DNA of 64,000 nt. It comes from Verrucomicrobiota bacterium. Lineage in GTDB: Bacteria; Verrucomicrobiota; Verrucomicrobiia; Verrucomicrobiales; Akkermansiaceae. Location: positions 1 through 64,000 of the forward strand of contig JAURPJ010000130.1 of the NCBI GenBank assembly GCA_030835305.1. The letters run 5' to 3'. The position numbers and the translations under genes were made by a program. The notes beneath the pieces were generated by a model. It was not told where the DNA came from. It saw nothing but the letters and a program-made list of their open reading frames with translations, and searched no databases. Every line of letters starts with the position of its first letter. Positions within the stretch are counted from its first letter, which is position 1. This document shows, piece after piece, positions 47,016 through 55,056 of the stretch.

Positions 47016-47951
47016 TTACGGAGTTGGGATGCCGTGTTTGAAGGGGTCATTGGGGTGAATGACAACGGTGGTTTCACCGGTGATGAAGGCACGGCCGGTG
47101 ACAATGGGAATGACCTTATCGGAGTCGGGTATGGACTCGAATGATCCTTCGAAGACGCTACCGATGATGGAGGCTTGTCGCCAGGTGTCTCCTTCGGCGA
47201 GTTTGCCGGAGGCGGCAAGGCAGGCAAGTTTGGCGCTGGTGCCGGTTCCGCAGGGAGAGCGGTCGTAAGCGGAGCCGGGGCAGAGAACGAAGTTTTGGGA
47301 GTCGGCTTTGATTCCGGGTTGGGGCGGGGCGAAGCACTCGATGTGGTCGATTTCGGCACCGTCTTCGCCCGTGATGTTCCGGGCGTGCAGGGAGTCGCGG
47401 ACAGTTCGGGTGAACTCAGTCAGCGCGGCGATGTTTTTCGCTTTGATCTCCGGACCCTGGTTGGAAATGAGAAAAAACCAATTCCCCCCCCATGAAATGT
47501 CACCGATGATTATTTGACCATCGGGCAGGGTGACCTCGACTTGCTTGGCGAAGCGATAGGATGGAATATTTTTGACCGTGATGGAGTGGTCTTTGGCGAG
47601 GAGGGCGGTCACGACTCCGACGGGTGTTTCGATGCGATGTTCGCCTGGCTCAAGACGGCCAAGGTGAGCGAGGGTTTCCACAATGCCGATAGTCCCGTGG
47701 AGGCAGGAGTGAAGGCACGAAAGGTTGTTGAAGAAGACGACGCCGGTGACGCAGGTGGAATCCTTTGGCTCACAGAGACAGGCTCCGACGACGGCATCAA
47801 ATCCCCTGGGTTCGTTGATAAGGGTGGTCCGAATCCAGTTGGCTTCTTTTTCGAGGAAGTCGCGGGTGGCGACGGCTCCGCGCGGAGTTTCGAGGCCCGA
47901 GACGATTGTCCGAGTGGGCTCGCCGCCGGTATGGGAGTCGATGATATACAC
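47016..47951 (-). CDS. 4-hydroxyproline 2-epimerase
   Basis: A 311-residue proline racemase-family enzyme starting at GTG. Both catalytic cysteines are present: Cys83 in HSCLHGTIG and Cys234 in YDRSPCGTGTSAK. The two-Cys arrangement fits an epimerase, whereas trans-3-hydroxyproline dehydratases replace one Cys by Thr. The enzyme interconverts trans-4-hydroxy-L-proline and cis-4-hydroxy-D-proline, the first committed step. Substrate choice follows from the operon partners. It is 53 bp downstream of the deaminase gene. Confidence 0.92.
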   Translation of the reverse strand: MYIIDSHTGGEPTRTIVSGLETPRGAVATRDFLEKEANWIRTTLINEPRGFDAVVGACLCEPKDSTCVTGVVFFNNLSCLHSCLHGTIGIVETLAHLGRLEPGEHRIETPVGVVTALLAKDHSITVKNIPSYRFAKQVEVTLPDGQIIIGDISWGGNWFFLISNQGPEIKAKNIAALTEFTRTVRDSLHARNITGEDGAEIDHIECFAPPQPGIKADSQNFVLCPGSAYDRSPCGTGTSAKLACLAASGKLAEGDTWRQASIIGSVFEGSFESIPDSDKVIPIVTGRAFITGETTVVIHPNDPFKHGIPTP

Positions 47952-48004
47952 TTAAACTTGAAGATTGGGCTTGGCTTGGCAGGTCCAAATGCCGGGGCTT
48001 TTGC

Positions 48005-48946
48005 TTACTTGCCTTCCCAGTTGTTCCACCAGCTGCGGAAGAGGGCGTGCTGGCTGTGAAGGAATTGTTTCTGGCTTGGGCTCAGTTGATCGTAGAAATT
48101 GATCTGGTGTTGGTAGGCGGTGTGGCCTTCGAGGACCATGAGTTCCTTGTAGTAGAGAACGAGGTCGGGGCCTTCGTCGAAGGTGGAAAGAACGGTGAGA
48201 GCTTCGGAGAGTTCGAGGGCATAACGGCGGGCTTGCGGGTCGCCTTTGGCAGCGGCTTCGCAGAGCACGATGAAGCGGAGAATTTCTTTCGGGAGTGCAT
48301 TGCCGACACCGGTGATGGCTCCAGTGGCACCACAATTGACAAAGCCGTGGTAAACCTGGGTATCGACACCGGCCATCAGGATGAGCGAATCGTCTTGGCT
48401 GGTGATGTTTTCGGCGGCGTAGCTGAGAGAGTCGGCTCCACCAAATTCCTTGAACCCGACGAGAGAGGAGAATTTTTTGCGCAGAGAGAAGAAAAGATCG
48501 GCTTTGGTTTCGAAACCGTAATAGGGAGAGTTGTAAATGACAGCGGGGAGTTCTCCCCCGGCTTTCAGAATTTCGCTGAAGTGATGGACCTGCGCTGCGG
48601 GAGAGCTTCCACGGCTCAGAACGCGGGGAATGACCATGAGACCATCGGCACCCACTTCGCGGGCGTGGGCGGCGTGGGCGGCGGCGACGGTGGTGTTTTG
48701 CGCGCCGGTGCCTACCACGGTTGGGATGCCAGCCTCGACAAGTCGCTTGATTCCTTCCATGCGCTGCTCATCGGTTAGGAGGGGCCAGTCTCCCATGGAG
48801 CCACAATAAACAACTCCACGCATGCCTTGTGCAATGAGGTCTTTGGCGGTTTCGACGAGTGCGTCGTAGTTAACGGTGCCGTTGGCATCGCAGGGAGTCA
48901 TCAGAGCGGGAATACAGCCTTCAAAAATGGGACGTTCATTGGACAT
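48005..48946 (-). CDS. DapA-family lyase, likely 1-pyrroline-4-hydroxy-2-carboxylate deaminase
   Basis: A 313-residue class I aldolase-type enzyme. The start ATG at 48946 gives MSNERPIFEGCIPALMTPC. Schiff-base Lys166 lies in LVGFKEFGG and Tyr138 in VIYNSPYYG; the early GSMGDWPLLT corresponds to the GTTGE region of DapA. In this operon the likely reaction is deamination of pyrroline-4-hydroxy-2-carboxylate to 2-oxoglutarate semialdehyde. The four genes form a complete route from trans-4-hydroxy-L-proline to 2-oxoglutarate. It is the first gene of the operon. Confidence 0.85.
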   Translation of the reverse strand: MSNERPIFEGCIPALMTPCDANGTVNYDALVETAKDLIAQGMRGVVYCGSMGDWPLLTDEQRMEGIKRLVEAGIPTVVGTGAQNTTVAAAHAAHAREVGADGLMVIPRVLSRGSSPAAQVHHFSEILKAGGELPAVIYNSPYYGFETKADLFFSLRKKFSSLVGFKEFGGADSLSYAAENITSQDDSLILMAGVDTQVYHGFVNCGATGAITGVGNALPKEILRFIVLCEAAAKGDPQARRYALELSEALTVLSTFDEGPDLVLYYKELMVLEGHTAYQHQINFYDQLSPSQKQFLHSQHALFRSWWNNWEGK

Positions 48947-49121
48947 GAGGGGAGCATGACCGGAAATTGGTGCTTTGTCTTGTTCCGAAGCAGAGAATTT
49001 GGTGGTGATTTTGATAAAAGGAGAGGGATAGGTAATCTCCGCAGCATGTCCGAGAGAAAAAGGGCACGGTGGTCGAGGCTTCCAGAGGATCAACCAGTAT
49101 TGCTTTTGCGTTGGCTTGCAG

Positions 49122-49746: not shown

Positions 49747-50877
49747 TCACTCGAGCTTCCAACGGGTTTGGCGCAAGACCGCAAATTTTGATCCGGCCAT
49801 TTTTTCATACCAGACAGTGAGTAGTGTTGCATCGTCAAGTTCTACGGTGCTGGGGTAGCCAAGATCTCCGGATGAACCATCGCCCGAGATGGTGAGTGGT
49901 GGCGACCATGTTTTGCCATGATCCTCGCTGACCCGAGCTTGATTGCCGAAGGGTTTCCGCCGGTGGCCGTAGCTCATGAGGAGACGGTCATCGCGCAGGC
50001 GGGTCAGAAAAGACGGGAGTCCCCAGACGCCGATGGGGTGAGGAGGGGACCAGGTCTTTCCTCCGTCATGGGATTCGCATTGGAGAGTTTCACGTGAGTG
50101 TGTCTTGTTGTGGTTTCGGATGTGCACAATGAGGTGGCCATTGGCTGCTTCGACAGTATGGAGTTCGTGGTAGTCCTGATGACGGTCGCCGTCGCGGGTC
50201 GGGATAGGAGCGAGCCATTGCCATGATTTGCCATCGTCGTGGGATTCGCAGACTCCGATTTCCTTGCCTTCGCTCCAGAGTTTCTTGCCGGCATAAAGAA
50301 GGCGCCCGTCGGAAAGTTGGGTCGGGCCGTGCGGGCTGTTGACGATGGTGGGGTAGCGCTCCGACCAGGTGATGCCGCCATCGGTGGAGCGAACCATCCA
50401 TTGGCCGAGTTCGGCTTTTCGTTGTTCGTCCGTAATCCGGTTGTGAGCGGCGAACCAACCGGGTTTGTTTCCGTCCTTTGGGAGAAGATTTGCGTATGCG
50501 AGGGAGGTGAAGGTGGTGACGAGCAGGGTGCCTTTGGCGGTTTCCAGAACTCCGGCATCGCGATCGTCGATCGGTCCGTCGAGAATGGTGCGGGGAAAGG
50601 TCCACGATTCTCCGTTGTCATGGGATCGTTGCAAATCGACCCGTCCAAAGGGGCAGACGTGTTGCTCCCGTCCTCCCGAGCAAACGACGAGAAGTTGCCC
50701 GTTTTTGCGGCGGGTCACGGTGGGCCAACCATGGTAACGGTGTGGGAGCTGACTGGTAATTTTGGTGTCGATGACCTGCGCGGCAGGTGCTGCGTGGAGG
50801 TTCAGATTGAAACCCAGCGGGCCTATGACTCCGGCAGAGGTGCTTGTCTTAAGAAAGTGTCGGCGTGAGTGATTCAT
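49747..50877 (-). CDS. Tat-exported BNR-repeat sialidase-like protein
   Basis: A 376-residue protein with a twin-arginine signal (SRRHFLK, hydrophobic stretch, AAPAA). The mature part has five Asp-box (BNR) motifs: SHDNGESW, STDGGITW, SHDDGKSW, SHDGGKTW and SEDHGKTW, the hallmark of six-bladed sialidase propellers (GH33 and relatives). An early YHGWPTVTRRKNGQLLVVCSGGREQH supplies the RIP-like Arg region. The catalytic activity on sialic acid is not proven: the set of three arginines cannot be checked by eye. It diverges from nagB over 99 bp, so it is likely controlled with that operon. Confidence 0.8.
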   Translation of the reverse strand: MNHSRRHFLKTSTSAGVIGPLGFNLNLHAAPAAQVIDTKITSQLPHRYHGWPTVTRRKNGQLLVVCSGGREQHVCPFGRVDLQRSHDNGESWTFPRTILDGPIDDRDAGVLETAKGTLLVTTFTSLAYANLLPKDGNKPGWFAAHNRITDEQRKAELGQWMVRSTDGGITWSERYPTIVNSPHGPTQLSDGRLLYAGKKLWSEGKEIGVCESHDDGKSWQWLAPIPTRDGDRHQDYHELHTVEAANGHLIVHIRNHNKTHSRETLQCESHDGGKTWSPPHPIGVWGLPSFLTRLRDDRLLMSYGHRRKPFGNQARVSEDHGKTWSPPLTISGDGSSGDLGYPSTVELDDATLLTVWYEKMAGSKFAVLRQTRWKLE

Positions 50878-50976: not shown

Positions 50977-51729
50977 ATGAATATTCAGAGGTTTGATTCG
51001 AAAGAAGCGATGGGTGCGGTGGCGGCTGCGGACGGGGCGGATAAGATGAGGAAGGCCCAAGCCGAACGGGGGGAGGTCAATATCATCGTGGCTACGGGAG
51101 CTTCCCAGTTTGAAATGCTGGAGGCTTTGACGAAAGAAGAGGGAATCGATTGGACCAAGGTGACCGTTTTCCACCTTGATGAATATGTGGGTTTGTCGAT
51201 CGAGCATCCGGCGTCTTTTCGGAAGTATTTGAAGGAGAGGTTTGAGGATCAACTACCTTCGGCGTTGCGAGCGTTTCACTACATCAATGCCGAGCAGGAT
51301 CCGGAAGCGGAGTGCGACCGGGTGGGGGGCTTGATCGCGGAGTCTCCGATAGATGTCGCTTTTGTGGGGATTGGTGAGAACGGGCACTTGGCCTTCAATG
51401 ATCCTCCGGCGGATTTTGAAACGGAGAAGCCGTATCTGGTCGTGAACTTGGATGACGCCTGTCGCCAACAGCAGTTTGGCGAAGGCTGGTTTCCAACCTT
51501 TGAAGCGGTTCCGGAGAAGGCGATCTCGATGTCGGTCCGGCAGATCATGAATAGTGGAGCCATCATTTGTACCGTGCCCGATGAGCGAAAGGCGGAGGCG
51601 GTAAGCAACTCGGTGGAGGGAGAGATTTCACCGGAGGTTCCCGCGTCGATTCTTCAGCAACATGGAGATTGCGGTCTCTACATTGATGAGCCGGCGGCGA
51701 GCTTGTTGGGGAAAGGCGGGGCGGAATGA
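50977..51729 (+). CDS. nagB: Glucosamine-6-phosphate deaminase
   Basis: A 250-residue enzyme converting glucosamine-6-phosphate to fructose-6-phosphate and ammonia. Family motifs are [26 protein letters not shown] and [21 protein letters not shown], with a closing [16 protein letters not shown] and [16 protein letters not shown]. It is slightly short compared with the 266-residue E. coli enzyme. It is the first gene of a four-gene operon and its stop overlaps the ATG of the next gene. Confidence 0.95.
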
Positions 51730-52877
51730 GTGAGGCGAAATCGATCGGTGTCGGCTTGGTGGGAGCCGGTTGGATGGGGGCGACACTCTTGCGCAGGTTC
51801 ACAGAACAATACAGGGTGAAAGTCGTGGGGGTGCATCAACGACGGAGAAACAAGGCTCTTGAGGTGATGAACGAGATGGGTCTCGGAGAAGATCTTTACT
51901 TTGATGATTTCGAGCAAATGTTGACCGATCCTGACTTGGATGCGGTTATTATTTCGAGCACGAACGAGGCGCATGGGAAGCAGGCCATTGCCGCGATGGA
52001 GGCAGGGAAACATGTCTTTTGCGAAAAGCCCTGTGCCACGCGTTACGATGAATTTTTACGTCAGATCGAACTCGAAAAAGCGAACCCAGAATTGGTGACC
52101 TTCGTGGACTATCTCATGAATTTTGATGCACTCGAGAATCGGATTCGGCGAATGACGCGCGAGGGAGATTTTGGAACGATCACCCAGATCCAGGTGAATT
52201 ATCGTCATCCCATCAACATTGCCGATGACAAGGTGTGGAAGCTTTCGGGCGAACGGATGGGCGATGCCATCGGGATGGGGATTATTCATTCACTGTCGGT
52301 GATGTTGAACATCATGGCCGAACAAGGGGCGACTCCGATGAAAGTCTATGCAACGAGTAGCATGGTGCATCGCCGTGATTTCGATATTCCCGGGCTTTGG
52401 AATTTGCAGATTGAGTTCAGTAATGGTGCGACTGGATGTTGTTTTGGAAATGTCGATCAGGCGAACGGCTACGACGCCTATCATCACATTCACGGGACGG
52501 AGGGTGGCTTGATTTTTGATTCCTTGTTGGATCGGCTGCAGAAGGTTCGTTTTTGGTCTGAAAAGACGACCGGCGGAAAGTGGATTTATCCGCTGGACCC
52601 GGCACGTTGTGAGGCGGAAGGAACGGCGGAACATCAATGGCCCGCTGACACCAGTACGCCGGACAGCGGTGATGTCATGAAGCATCAGACGGGCGCGTGT
52701 GTGTCCCATTTTTTGGAGTGTATCCGCAAGAGAGAGCAGTCGTACCTGAGCTTCGTTAACTCGGCTCCGGTTGCAGACTTGGGATGGGCGGCTCAAATTT
52801 CTGCGGCCGAAGGCGTGCCCGTCGAACTCCCGCTGGATGAAGATCGGGCACGGAAATTTTTTGAAGGGAACGGCTAG
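51726..52877 (+). CDS. Gfo/Idh/MocA family oxidoreductase
   Basis: A 383-residue NAD(P)-dependent oxidoreductase. The N-terminal Rossmann part has [16 protein letters not shown], then [33 protein letters not shown], where Lys of EKP is the usual catalytic position. The C-terminal part has [27 protein letters not shown]. Genes of this family in amino-sugar operons act on sugar-phosphates or glycosides, often by transient oxidation at C3. The substrate here is unknown. It overlaps nagB by 4 bp and is 2 bp ahead of nagA. Confidence 0.85.
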
Positions 52878-52879
52878 GG

Positions 52880-53794
52880 ATGGCAGCGTTCGATCTTCAA
52901 GTGAACGGCTATGCGGGGGTCGATTTCAATGGCGACCTCTTGAGTGCCGATGAGCTGGGGAGAGTGTGTGATGCTTTGAGCAAAGATGGTGTTGGCGGGA
53001 TCCTGGCAACCTTCATCACGGATGATCTTGGCGCGATGTGTTCCCGGATGGAGAATTTGGTGCGAATACGGGAAGAGAATCGGGAATGGCGCGAGTTGAT
53101 CCGGGGGATCCATATCGAGGGACCGTTTTTAAACGAAACCCGGGGTTATATCGGAGCTCATCCTGTGGAATATGCCAAACGGGCGGATATTGAGTCGATG
53201 GAACGTCTTCTGTATGCGGCGGGTGGTTTGACAAAAATTGTTACCCTCGCGCCTGAACGGGACGAGGGATTTGCGGTGACGCGATTTTTGGTCGAGCGGG
53301 GGATCTGTGTGGCGGCGGGGCATTGCGATCCGCCGATCGAGGAATTGAAGGGCGCGATTGGAGCCGGATTGAAAATGTTTACCCATCTGGGAAACGGATG
53401 CCCGATGGCGTTGAATCGACACGACAACATCATCCAGCGCGTGCTTTCCCTGAGAGATGATCTCTGGATCAGCTTTATTCCGGATGGAGCGCACGTTCCG
53501 TTTGCCACCCTGAAAAACTATCTTGATCTGGTTGGAACCGATCGTGTCGTGATGGTGACCGACGCCATTGCGGCGGCCGGAATGGGGCCGGGCGATTACC
53601 ATTTTCTGGGGAGGGATGTGAGAATTGGAGACGACCTAGTAGCTCGTTCTCCGGACGGGAGTCACTTGATTGGCTCAACGATCACGATGCCGCGAGTGGC
53701 GGAGAATTTGGAAAGAGAGCTGGGCTTCCCGGAATCCGAGATTCGTAAACTGATTGAAGAAAATCCACGAATCTTGATTGAAGAATCGAAATGA
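52880..53794 (+). CDS. nagA: N-acetylglucosamine-6-phosphate deacetylase
   Basis: A 304-residue amidohydrolase, about 75 residues shorter than E. coli NagA because the N-terminal beta-sandwich is minimal (it starts MAAFDLQVNGYAGVDFN). Conserved motifs are HIEGPFLNETRGYIGAH, CVAAGHCDPP, MFTHLGNGCPM, FIPDGAHVP and VTDAIAAAGM with the catalytic Asp. It removes acetate from GlcNAc-6-P, feeding NagB. Together with nagB this gives the standard pathway from GlcNAc-6-phosphate to fructose-6-phosphate. It overlaps the next gene by 4 bp. Confidence 0.92.
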   Translation: MAAFDLQVNGYAGVDFNGDLLSADELGRVCDALSKDGVGGILATFITDDLGAMCSRMENLVRIREENREWRELIRGIHIEGPFLNETRGYIGAHPVEYAKRADIESMERLLYAAGGLTKIVTLAPERDEGFAVTRFLVERGICVAAGHCDPPIEELKGAIGAGLKMFTHLGNGCPMALNRHDNIIQRVLSLRDDLWISFIPDGAHVPFATLKNYLDLVGTDRVVMVTDAIAAAGMGPGDYHFLGRDVRIGDDLVARSPDGSHLIGSTITMPRVAENLERELGFPESEIRKLIEENPRILIEESK

Positions 53795-55056
53795 TAAAGC
53801 GACTGAAAGAGCTGATTGGGAAGATTGGGCCGACCATTATTGTTGCGGCAGTCGTATTGGGGCCGGGGAGTATTTTGACCAGTTCGCGGGTGGGGGCTGA
53901 CTTTGGATTTCCAGCTTGGTTTGTTTTAGCTCTCTCGACTTTCCTGATGATCGGGATGGTGGCTCTGGCGGCCCGACTTGGGGTGACTTATCAACGCAGT
54001 CTGTGCGAGGAGCTAGCGGCGCGCTTGGGGCGCGGAGCTTCCTTGTTCGTGGGGCTCGTTCTCTTTCTGGTCGTGGCCTTGTTTCAGTCGAGCAACAACC
54101 TTGCGATCATCGCAGGGTTGGAGCCTTTGGTGGAGGATGTGGGTGACGGGAGCTTGTTGGCGGGGACGGGTTTGAGGGTAACGGTCTTGGTTGTGATTAA
54201 TCTTTTCGTGGCCTTCTGCCTCTTTCGCGTTCGGAGTTTATACTCCCAGATCGAAAGACTGATGAAGATTTTGGTGCTGGTGATGATTTGCGCCTTCACC
54301 GGAAATCTCATCGTGGTGCTTTTCGGAGCGTTGGGTTCGGAGTCGATCCAAAGTTCGACGAATGAAAAACGTGATCTCATTCCGCTCCTGGGAATGATTG
54401 GAACGACCTTTTCAATTGGCGGGGCCTTTTATCAAGGCTATCTCGTTCGGGAGAAAGGTTGGACGCTGGCTGATTGGAAGCGAGGGTTGGGGGATTCGAT
54501 TTTTGGAATTTGTGTGCTGGGAGCGGTGACTTCCTTTATTCTTATCACTTCGGCACTGACTTTTCACGGCCGAGCCGATGCGATTGAGTTGAAGAGTGTC
54601 GGGGATGTCGCAAGGCAGTTGGAGCCCTTGTTCGGGAAAAGTGCGAAGGTGATTTTCAGCTTTGGGATTATGGCAGGGGCTTTCAGTTCCTTTTTGATCA
54701 ATGCGGTGATTGGTGGAACGATTCTCTCGGATAGCTTGGGGAAGGGCTGGCGTCTCTCCGATGCCATGCCGAGGGTGTTGACCTGCCTGGCTATGGTGAT
54801 TGGAATGGGTGTGGCCTCGTGGTCGCTTTCAGGAGCCTCCGGAACGGTGACTTTGATCACGGTCGCGCAAGCTCTGACCGTCCTGGGGCTACCGATGCTG
54901 GCGGCGGCTCTCCTCTATCTGGGAACGAGGAAAGGGTTGGTTGGAGAGAAAAAGATTCCGGGTTGGATCCTTGGGACGTGCTGGCTGGGCTTCGTGGTGG
55001 CCTGTGTTTTGGCGGTGAAGACCGCACTGACGGTTTGGGGGAAGGCCTTTGCCTGA
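53791..55056 (+). CDS. Nramp-family-like membrane transporter lacking metal motifs
   Basis: A 421-residue protein with about 11 transmembrane helices. The first helix reads IIVAAVVLGPGSILTSSRVGADFGFP, the Nramp TM1 pattern, but the metal-binding Asp-Pro-Gly-Asn of real Mn2+/Fe2+ carriers is replaced (GADFG). In TM6 the expected Met-Pro-His segment is absent (MIGTTFSIGGAFYQGY). So it probably does not carry divalent metals, although databases would call it an Nramp transporter. It is the last gene of the nagB-oxidoreductase-nagA operon, translationally coupled to nagA, which points to uptake of an amino sugar or related solute. Confidence 0.75.
   Translation: MIKRLKELIGKIGPTIIVAAVVLGPGSILTSSRVGADFGFPAWFVLALSTFLMIGMVALAARLGVTYQRSLCEELAARLGRGASLFVGLVLFLVVALFQSSNNLAIIAGLEPLVEDVGDGSLLAGTGLRVTVLVVINLFVAFCLFRVRSLYSQIERLMKILVLVMICAFTGNLIVVLFGALGSESIQSSTNEKRDLIPLLGMIGTTFSIGGAFYQGYLVREKGWTLADWKRGLGDSIFGICVLGAVTSFILITSALTFHGRADAIELKSVGDVARQLEPLFGKSAKVIFSFGIMAGAFSSFLINAVIGGTILSDSLGKGWRLSDAMPRVLTCLAMVIGMGVASWSLSGASGTVTLITVAQALTVLGLPMLAAALLYLGTRKGLVGEKKIPGWILGTCWLGFVVACVLAVKTALTVWGKAFA

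Follow-up and report, generated by a model that had tools for sequence, protein, structure and literature searches.

The final gene of a nag gene cluster in an Akkermansiaceae genome encodes a relative of the Nramp metal carriers, which raises the question of what such a protein would transport in this setting. The window analysed, a stretch of 64,000 nt, contains the gene as a stop-free open reading frame with an ATG start (53791-55056, forward strand), encoding 421 aa. Its product matches PF01566 with E = 5.3e-47 and 161 bits (cut-off 29.8), spanning profile positions 3-354 of 357 and hence the whole domain. The NCBIfam manganese carrier models, however, score it far below their cut-offs (PRK00701, 71 against 430 bits; TIGR01197, 42 against 272.5 bits). 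It aligns end to end with the solved Nramps, the best match being EleNRMT (7qia). An AlphaFold2 model built from eight sequences had a pLDDT of 34 and was discarded, hence the LeuT fold is a tentative assignment, made by homology to these structures.

The nag gene cluster

The gene and its neighbours are as follows.

49747..50877, reverse strand: BNR-repeat (sialidase-superfamily) protein with a Tat-like leader, transcribed divergently (PF13088, E = 7e-23)
50977..51729, forward strand: NagB-like glucosamine-6-phosphate deaminase, 250 aa (PF01182, E = 6e-21; nearest solved structure 2bkv, E = 1.6e-34)
51726..52877, forward strand: Gfo/Idh/MocA NAD-dependent sugar oxidoreductase (Gfo), with an ATGA overlap with nagB (PF01408, E = 1.7e-23)
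52880..53794, forward strand: short NagA (GlcNAc-6-phosphate deacetylase) without the small beta domain, 304 aa (TIGR00221, E = 3e-51 over 59-342 of 380; nearest solved structure 2vhl, E = 3e-30)
53791..55056, forward strand: Nramp-fold (PF01566) carrier without metal ligands, a proposed amino sugar importer (Pfam match, alignment and tree)

As nagB and the Gfo gene overlap by 4 bp, the nagA stop overlaps the carrier start in a second ATGA (53791-53794), and just two bases separate the Gfo gene from nagA, the four genes are read as one operon. A preliminary description of this locus had placed an Nramp-like gene last in a nagB-oxidoreductase-nagA operon, joined to nagA by a 4 bp overlap; the family assignment, the overlap and, through Pfam, NCBIfam and PDB matches, the identities of all three enzymes are borne out. 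The nagB product scores below the NCBIfam nagB equivalog cut-off. No signal peptide was seen by eye in the Gfo protein, and neither an Rfam riboswitch (M-box or other) nor a metal regulator was found around the operon.

Among solved structures, NagA matches GlcNAc-6-P deacetylases and NagB matches GlcN-6-P deaminases. The operon NagA retains the Arg and His aligning with the phosphate-contact region of the E. coli enzyme, hence its substrate is likely to be a 6-phospho amino sugar. The protein has neither the N-terminal 55 or so residues nor the C-terminal tail of which the small beta domain consists, as is also the case in relatives' operons of the same type; a second NagA-like protein encoded outside the operon (C113) is 368 aa long and exceeds the TIGR00221 cut-off. 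No kinase is encoded in the operon; the genome encodes a pair of ROK proteins, of which one is ROK_glcA-like and the other fructokinase-like. It also has NagX-like and GH20 genes, and no PTS EIIC was found in it. According to one proposal, NagX acetylates glucosamine in the periplasm ahead of uptake, such that the GlcNAc made there then requires a carrier (PMC9007349). A gluP-like MFS gene, under its family cut-off and beside a sugar-isomerase-like gene elsewhere in the genome, could also provide entry for GlcNAc.

Upstream of the operon, both here (47016-49093, reverse strand) and in close relatives, a 4-hydroxyproline epimerase gene adjoins a DHDPS-family gene, a pair likely to belong to trans-4-hydroxyproline catabolism. 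The BNR-repeat and DHDPS-family genes might together have indicated a sialic acid locus; this was rejected, since the epimerase neighbour fits hydroxyproline catabolism better and the DHDPS-family gene is not retained with the carrier beyond close relatives. The BNR-repeat gene is likewise kept as a neighbour in close relatives only (L035, L037-L042 and L055).

The substrate site and its place in the family

We take the TM3 acids and the TM6 His of DraNramp to be D131, E134 and H232. Alignment with the solved Nramps locates the corresponding parts of the carrier gene as listed below.

53860..53871, forward strand: codons of G24-P25-G26-S27 in TM1, replacing DPGN (D56 and N59 of DraNramp)
54085..54099, forward strand: codons of Q99-S-S-N-N103 in TM3, replacing the D131/E134 acids
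54403..54420, forward strand: codons of T205-T-F-S208-I-G210 in TM6, replacing A227/M230/H232
54868..54870, forward strand: codon of Q360 in TM10, the sole Nramp substrate-site side chain retained

The TM1 motif is thus GPGS rather than DPGN, and the TM6 segment reads GTTFSIGGAFYQ where Nramps have GATVMPHN. All the alignable metal and proton positions are replaced: D56 by G24, N59 by S27, D131 by Q99, E134 by N102, A227 by T205, M230 by S208 and H232 by G210 (numbering of D56, N59, A227 and M230 from PMC10115441). The loss of DPGN and of Met-Pro-His, which the preliminary description had reported, is therefore confirmed, with no substrate-site side chain other than the TM10 Gln turning out to be conserved in the alignment; beyond those motifs, the Ala of TM6 and both acids of TM3 are changed too. 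Among 18 subfamily proteins of 40-98% identity, the metal ligands are absent throughout, G24, Q99, N102, N103, T205, N304 and Q360 are invariant, and position 27 is Ser or Thr. The only columns always charged across a wider subfamily set are 155 (E), 222 (K/R), 235 (D), 314 (D) and 380 (K/R), none of them at an aligned metal-site position, hence as far as the alignment tells the site is polar and uncharged. It would be composed of S27, Q99, S101, N102, N103, T205, S208, N304 and Q360.

In a maximum-likelihood tree of 43 PF01566 proteins, computed under LG+F+R4 with 1000 ultrafast bootstraps and rooted at the midpoint, Nramp and NRMT form one group with support of 100, from which the carrier is excluded. 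Sister to these is a clade adjoining hydantoinase/oxoprolinase genes (support 84), separate from that of the carrier. The carrier's own clade has support of 99, and includes haloarchaeal Gfo-linked proteins and a rhizobial protein linked to DHDPS and LacI genes; two clades further out have the TM1 motifs GTGS and GGGS. The TM1 Asp is absent from every clade but Nramp and NRMT. Hence the carrier, which had been described as an Nramp without metal motifs, does lack those motifs, but probably did not arise from an Nramp by loss of the metal site, as it branches outside Nramp and NRMT alongside other carriers without the Asp. That its lineage never had such a site is likely though unproven, midpoint rooting being an assumption.

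Gene neighbourhoods across the family

The closest named records are Akkermansiaceae metagenome-assembled genomes (MAGs). The whole operon is kept in orthologues of 79-98% identity, and within Verrucomicrobiales, down to 40% identity, nagA, nagB and/or the Gfo gene adjoin that of the carrier in shuffled order. At 40-58% identity, the arrangements are nagB-Gfo-nagA-nramp (L043 and L052), nagA-nagB-nramp (L050), nagA-nramp (L051), nagB-nagA-nramp (L053) and nagB-nramp with a sugar isomerase-like gene (L083). Four relatives of 53% identity (L046-L049) have the Gfo gene as sole partner, with nagA and nagB not adjacent; two further relatives (L044 and L045) keep neither nagA/nagB nor Gfo. At least six lineages nevertheless show linkage to nagA and/or nagB, in differing orders, which extends the association well beyond the source genome to several families. 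The recurrence of this linkage despite rearrangement and the lack of the ligands in all 18 homologues go beyond chance.

Among 58 related genomes, the short NagA (counted as present above 150 bits) is found in 20 of the 21 with the carrier, against 11 of the 37 without it (Fisher p = 1e-6, a value inflated by shared descent). The subfamily is rare in the phylum as a whole, exceeding 300 bits in 6 of 387 sampled genomes, the source genome included. Other neighbours within the clade vary, comprising xylose-isomerase-like TIM barrels, sulfatases, a GDSL esterase, a glucuronoyl-esterase-like protein and DHDPS; signal-bearing Gfo proteins flank the relatives at L046 and L052, and a 3-keto-disaccharide hydrolase domain that at L050. 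In the FRAM18 MAG (L041 and L061) the nramp, nagA, Gfo and epimerase genes are split by frameshifts that are probably sequencing errors. A remnant of a carrier gene with in-frame stops was also observed (G273, L085:7510-8547); it is intact in relatives of that locus.

The haloarchaeal plasmid relatives in the 99% clade (31-33% identity) adjoin genes for Gfo, heparinase II/III, sulfatase, fumarylacetoacetate hydrolase, BNR-4 and sugar isomerase proteins. Orthology of the operon Gfo with these haloarchaeal Gfo neighbours was considered and rejected, with matches of at most 43 bits, and the weak similarity seen between a single secreted Gfo and a single haloarchaeal one was given no weight. In the GTGS clade, two loci (L108:7243-12141 and L109:6322-10565) adjoin a KDG-kinase-like PfkB, a KDPG aldolase and a LacI-like regulator, making their proteins candidate sugar acid carriers, and a third (L088) adjoins a glycoside-3-dehydrogenase-like Gfo and an HpcH aldolase. 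The GGGS clade includes one gene adjoining Gfo and GH20 (L111) and another adjoining Gfo (L112). The true MntH genes recovered by the same searches, by contrast, adjoin mntR; since sugar gene neighbours recur elsewhere, several branches of PF01566 are compatible with a carbohydrate-type role that does not involve metal.

Other contexts were also seen. Long proteins with GGGS in TM1 (L059:4695-6443 and L110:302-1945, one of them in the source genome) are, by eye, encoded divergently from heme O synthase-like and SCO1/SenC-like genes, a cytochrome-oxidase-assembly-type context that differs from the sugar context of the other GGGS copies. Four haloarchaeal genes (L076, L081, L115 and L116), with GPGT in TM1 where it was read, immediately precede hydantoinase/oxoprolinase A and B genes, in some cases accompanied by an Asp/Glu racemase gene; their products are candidate hydantoin or oxoproline carriers.

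Proposed function and relation to known systems

With no metal site, and a neighbourhood of amino sugar and sugar genes conserved beyond the source genome, a sugar-type substrate is the best reading. On the basis of its sequence, we suggest, with a probability of roughly 0.55, that the protein is a LeuT-fold secondary carrier of a PF01566 'orphan' branch outside SLC11/Nramp and NRMT, and that it imports a neutral amino sugar for NagA and NagB, with GlcNAc or one of its close derivatives as the likeliest cargo. It would bring the sugar into the cytoplasm by alternating access through the TM1/TM6 bundle, presumably coupled to H+ or Na+; the Gfo enzyme and an unlinked ROK-type kinase would then prepare it for NagA and NagB, whose steps would end in fructose-6-phosphate. 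The lack of a PTS EIIC and of a riboswitch, the presence of NagX-like, ROK and GH20 proteins and the co-occurrence with NagA count in favour of this; the relatives with only Gfo or without nag neighbours, the 11 genomes with a short NagA and no carrier, the position of the kinase outside the operon and the gluP-like MFS gene as an alternative entry for GlcNAc count against it. Accordingly, the earlier suggestion that the protein moves an amino sugar or glycan breakdown product is partly supported, for a sugar-type substrate, with GlcNAc as a candidate; four relatives have Gfo alone beside the carrier gene.

Those relatives suit a somewhat different cargo, an amino sugar in oxidised form, for instance 3-keto-GlcNAc, which we consider unlikely. 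It would be generated outside the cell, by either a Gfo-type dehydrogenase that is secreted or a 3-keto-glycoside hydrolase, and following import the cytoplasmic operon Gfo would reduce it to GlcNAc for the kinase, NagA and NagB. This would explain both why Gfo stays with the carrier where nagA and nagB do not, and the signal-bearing Gfo proteins and hydrolase domain beside relatives. It is also possible, if doubtful, that the substrate is some other small organic solute (a non-amino sugar, sugar acid or anhydrosugar), NagA and NagB being joined to it by shared regulation alone: the TIM barrels, sulfatases, esterases and DHDPS beside clade members vary, and Gfo is the partner that remains in the 53% group, yet the repeated nagA and nagB linkage is at odds with such an arrangement. 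Since sequence does not reveal direction, the protein might even export or exchange a pathway product such as acetate, ammonium or a keto-sugar, which seems highly improbable for a catabolic operon with no other carrier, in a family whose characterised members are importers (PMC13274462, PMC4072509).

Pfam membership itself invites the thought of a metal importer, supplying the divalent metal of NagA, with main-chain oxygens and those of Ser/Thr/Asn/Gln standing in for the Nramp ligands. Enzymes of the NagA family bind metal, and NagA is a metallo-amidohydrolase; YcsG (PMC10448178) and MumT (PMC5050338), also encoded in metabolic operons, are reported manganese importers that raise Mn content. 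Such a site would, however, be without any acid, Met or His, whereas even NRMT retains an Asp, and the TM1 Asp is described as universally conserved in SLC11 by work on NRAT (PMC10115441). As the operon has no metal regulator or riboswitch nearby, and clade members adjoin Gfo, sulfatase and heparinase genes rather than any constant metalloenzyme, we regard metal import as improbable.

Importing amino sugars, the carrier would be a candidate inner-membrane entry route for them in marine Akkermansiaceae, the source genome having no PTS EIIC. As PF01566 proteins are annotated by default as 'divalent metal transporter', many Verrucomicrobiota and haloarchaeal annotations would be wrong if this branch carries sugars. 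The branch would then provide an extant connection between the organic-solute transporters of the LeuT fold and the metal-carrying Nramps, and the origin of the metal site in the LeuT fold would become a testable question. Were the cargo a keto-sugar, the Nramp fold would have a part in the breakdown of keto-sugars, perhaps in Archaea as well as Bacteria.

The carrier shares PF01566, end-to-end alignment, the TM10 Gln and the TM1/TM6 break positions with SLC11/Nramp proteins (DraNramp, MntH and BfraNramp), but has all the TM1/TM6 ligands and TM3 acids replaced and falls outside their 100% clade. The NRMTs, which carry Mg2+ (PMC4072509) and include EleNRMT, likewise stand outside classical SLC11 and have a TM6 Thr at the A227 position; they differ in having a TM1 Asp, a TM6 Trp, a grouping with Nramp and in some cases an M-box, whereas the carrier has G24, G210, a separate clade and no riboswitch. 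Being neither Slc11 nor NRMT, it fits, by description, the Slc11 'orphan outgroup' of Cellier (PMC9606685), PF01566 proteins without the Mn and proton residues; the passages on that outgroup give no substrate (PMC9606685, PMC10606218), while the subfamily described in this work is a defined one with ties to nag and sugar genes. No report of a sugar-carrying Nramp relative was found in the open-access papers searched. The idea that a non-metal cargo is unheard of for this Pfam family is out of date: PxpT of C. glutamicum, an NRAMP family protein with YcsG of B. subtilis as a homologue, is required for growth on 5-oxoproline, which ties this pair genetically to its uptake (PMC13274462). Compared by description and absent from the tree, PxpT and YcsG resemble the carrier in family (PF01566/TCDB 2.A.55), catabolic operon and organic substrate uptake, and differ in belonging to a 5-oxoproline operon; no gene of their type was found beside pxpABC on the plasmids searched. 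Given this precedent for organic cargo in PF01566, the carrier would represent neither a new fold nor a new mechanism.
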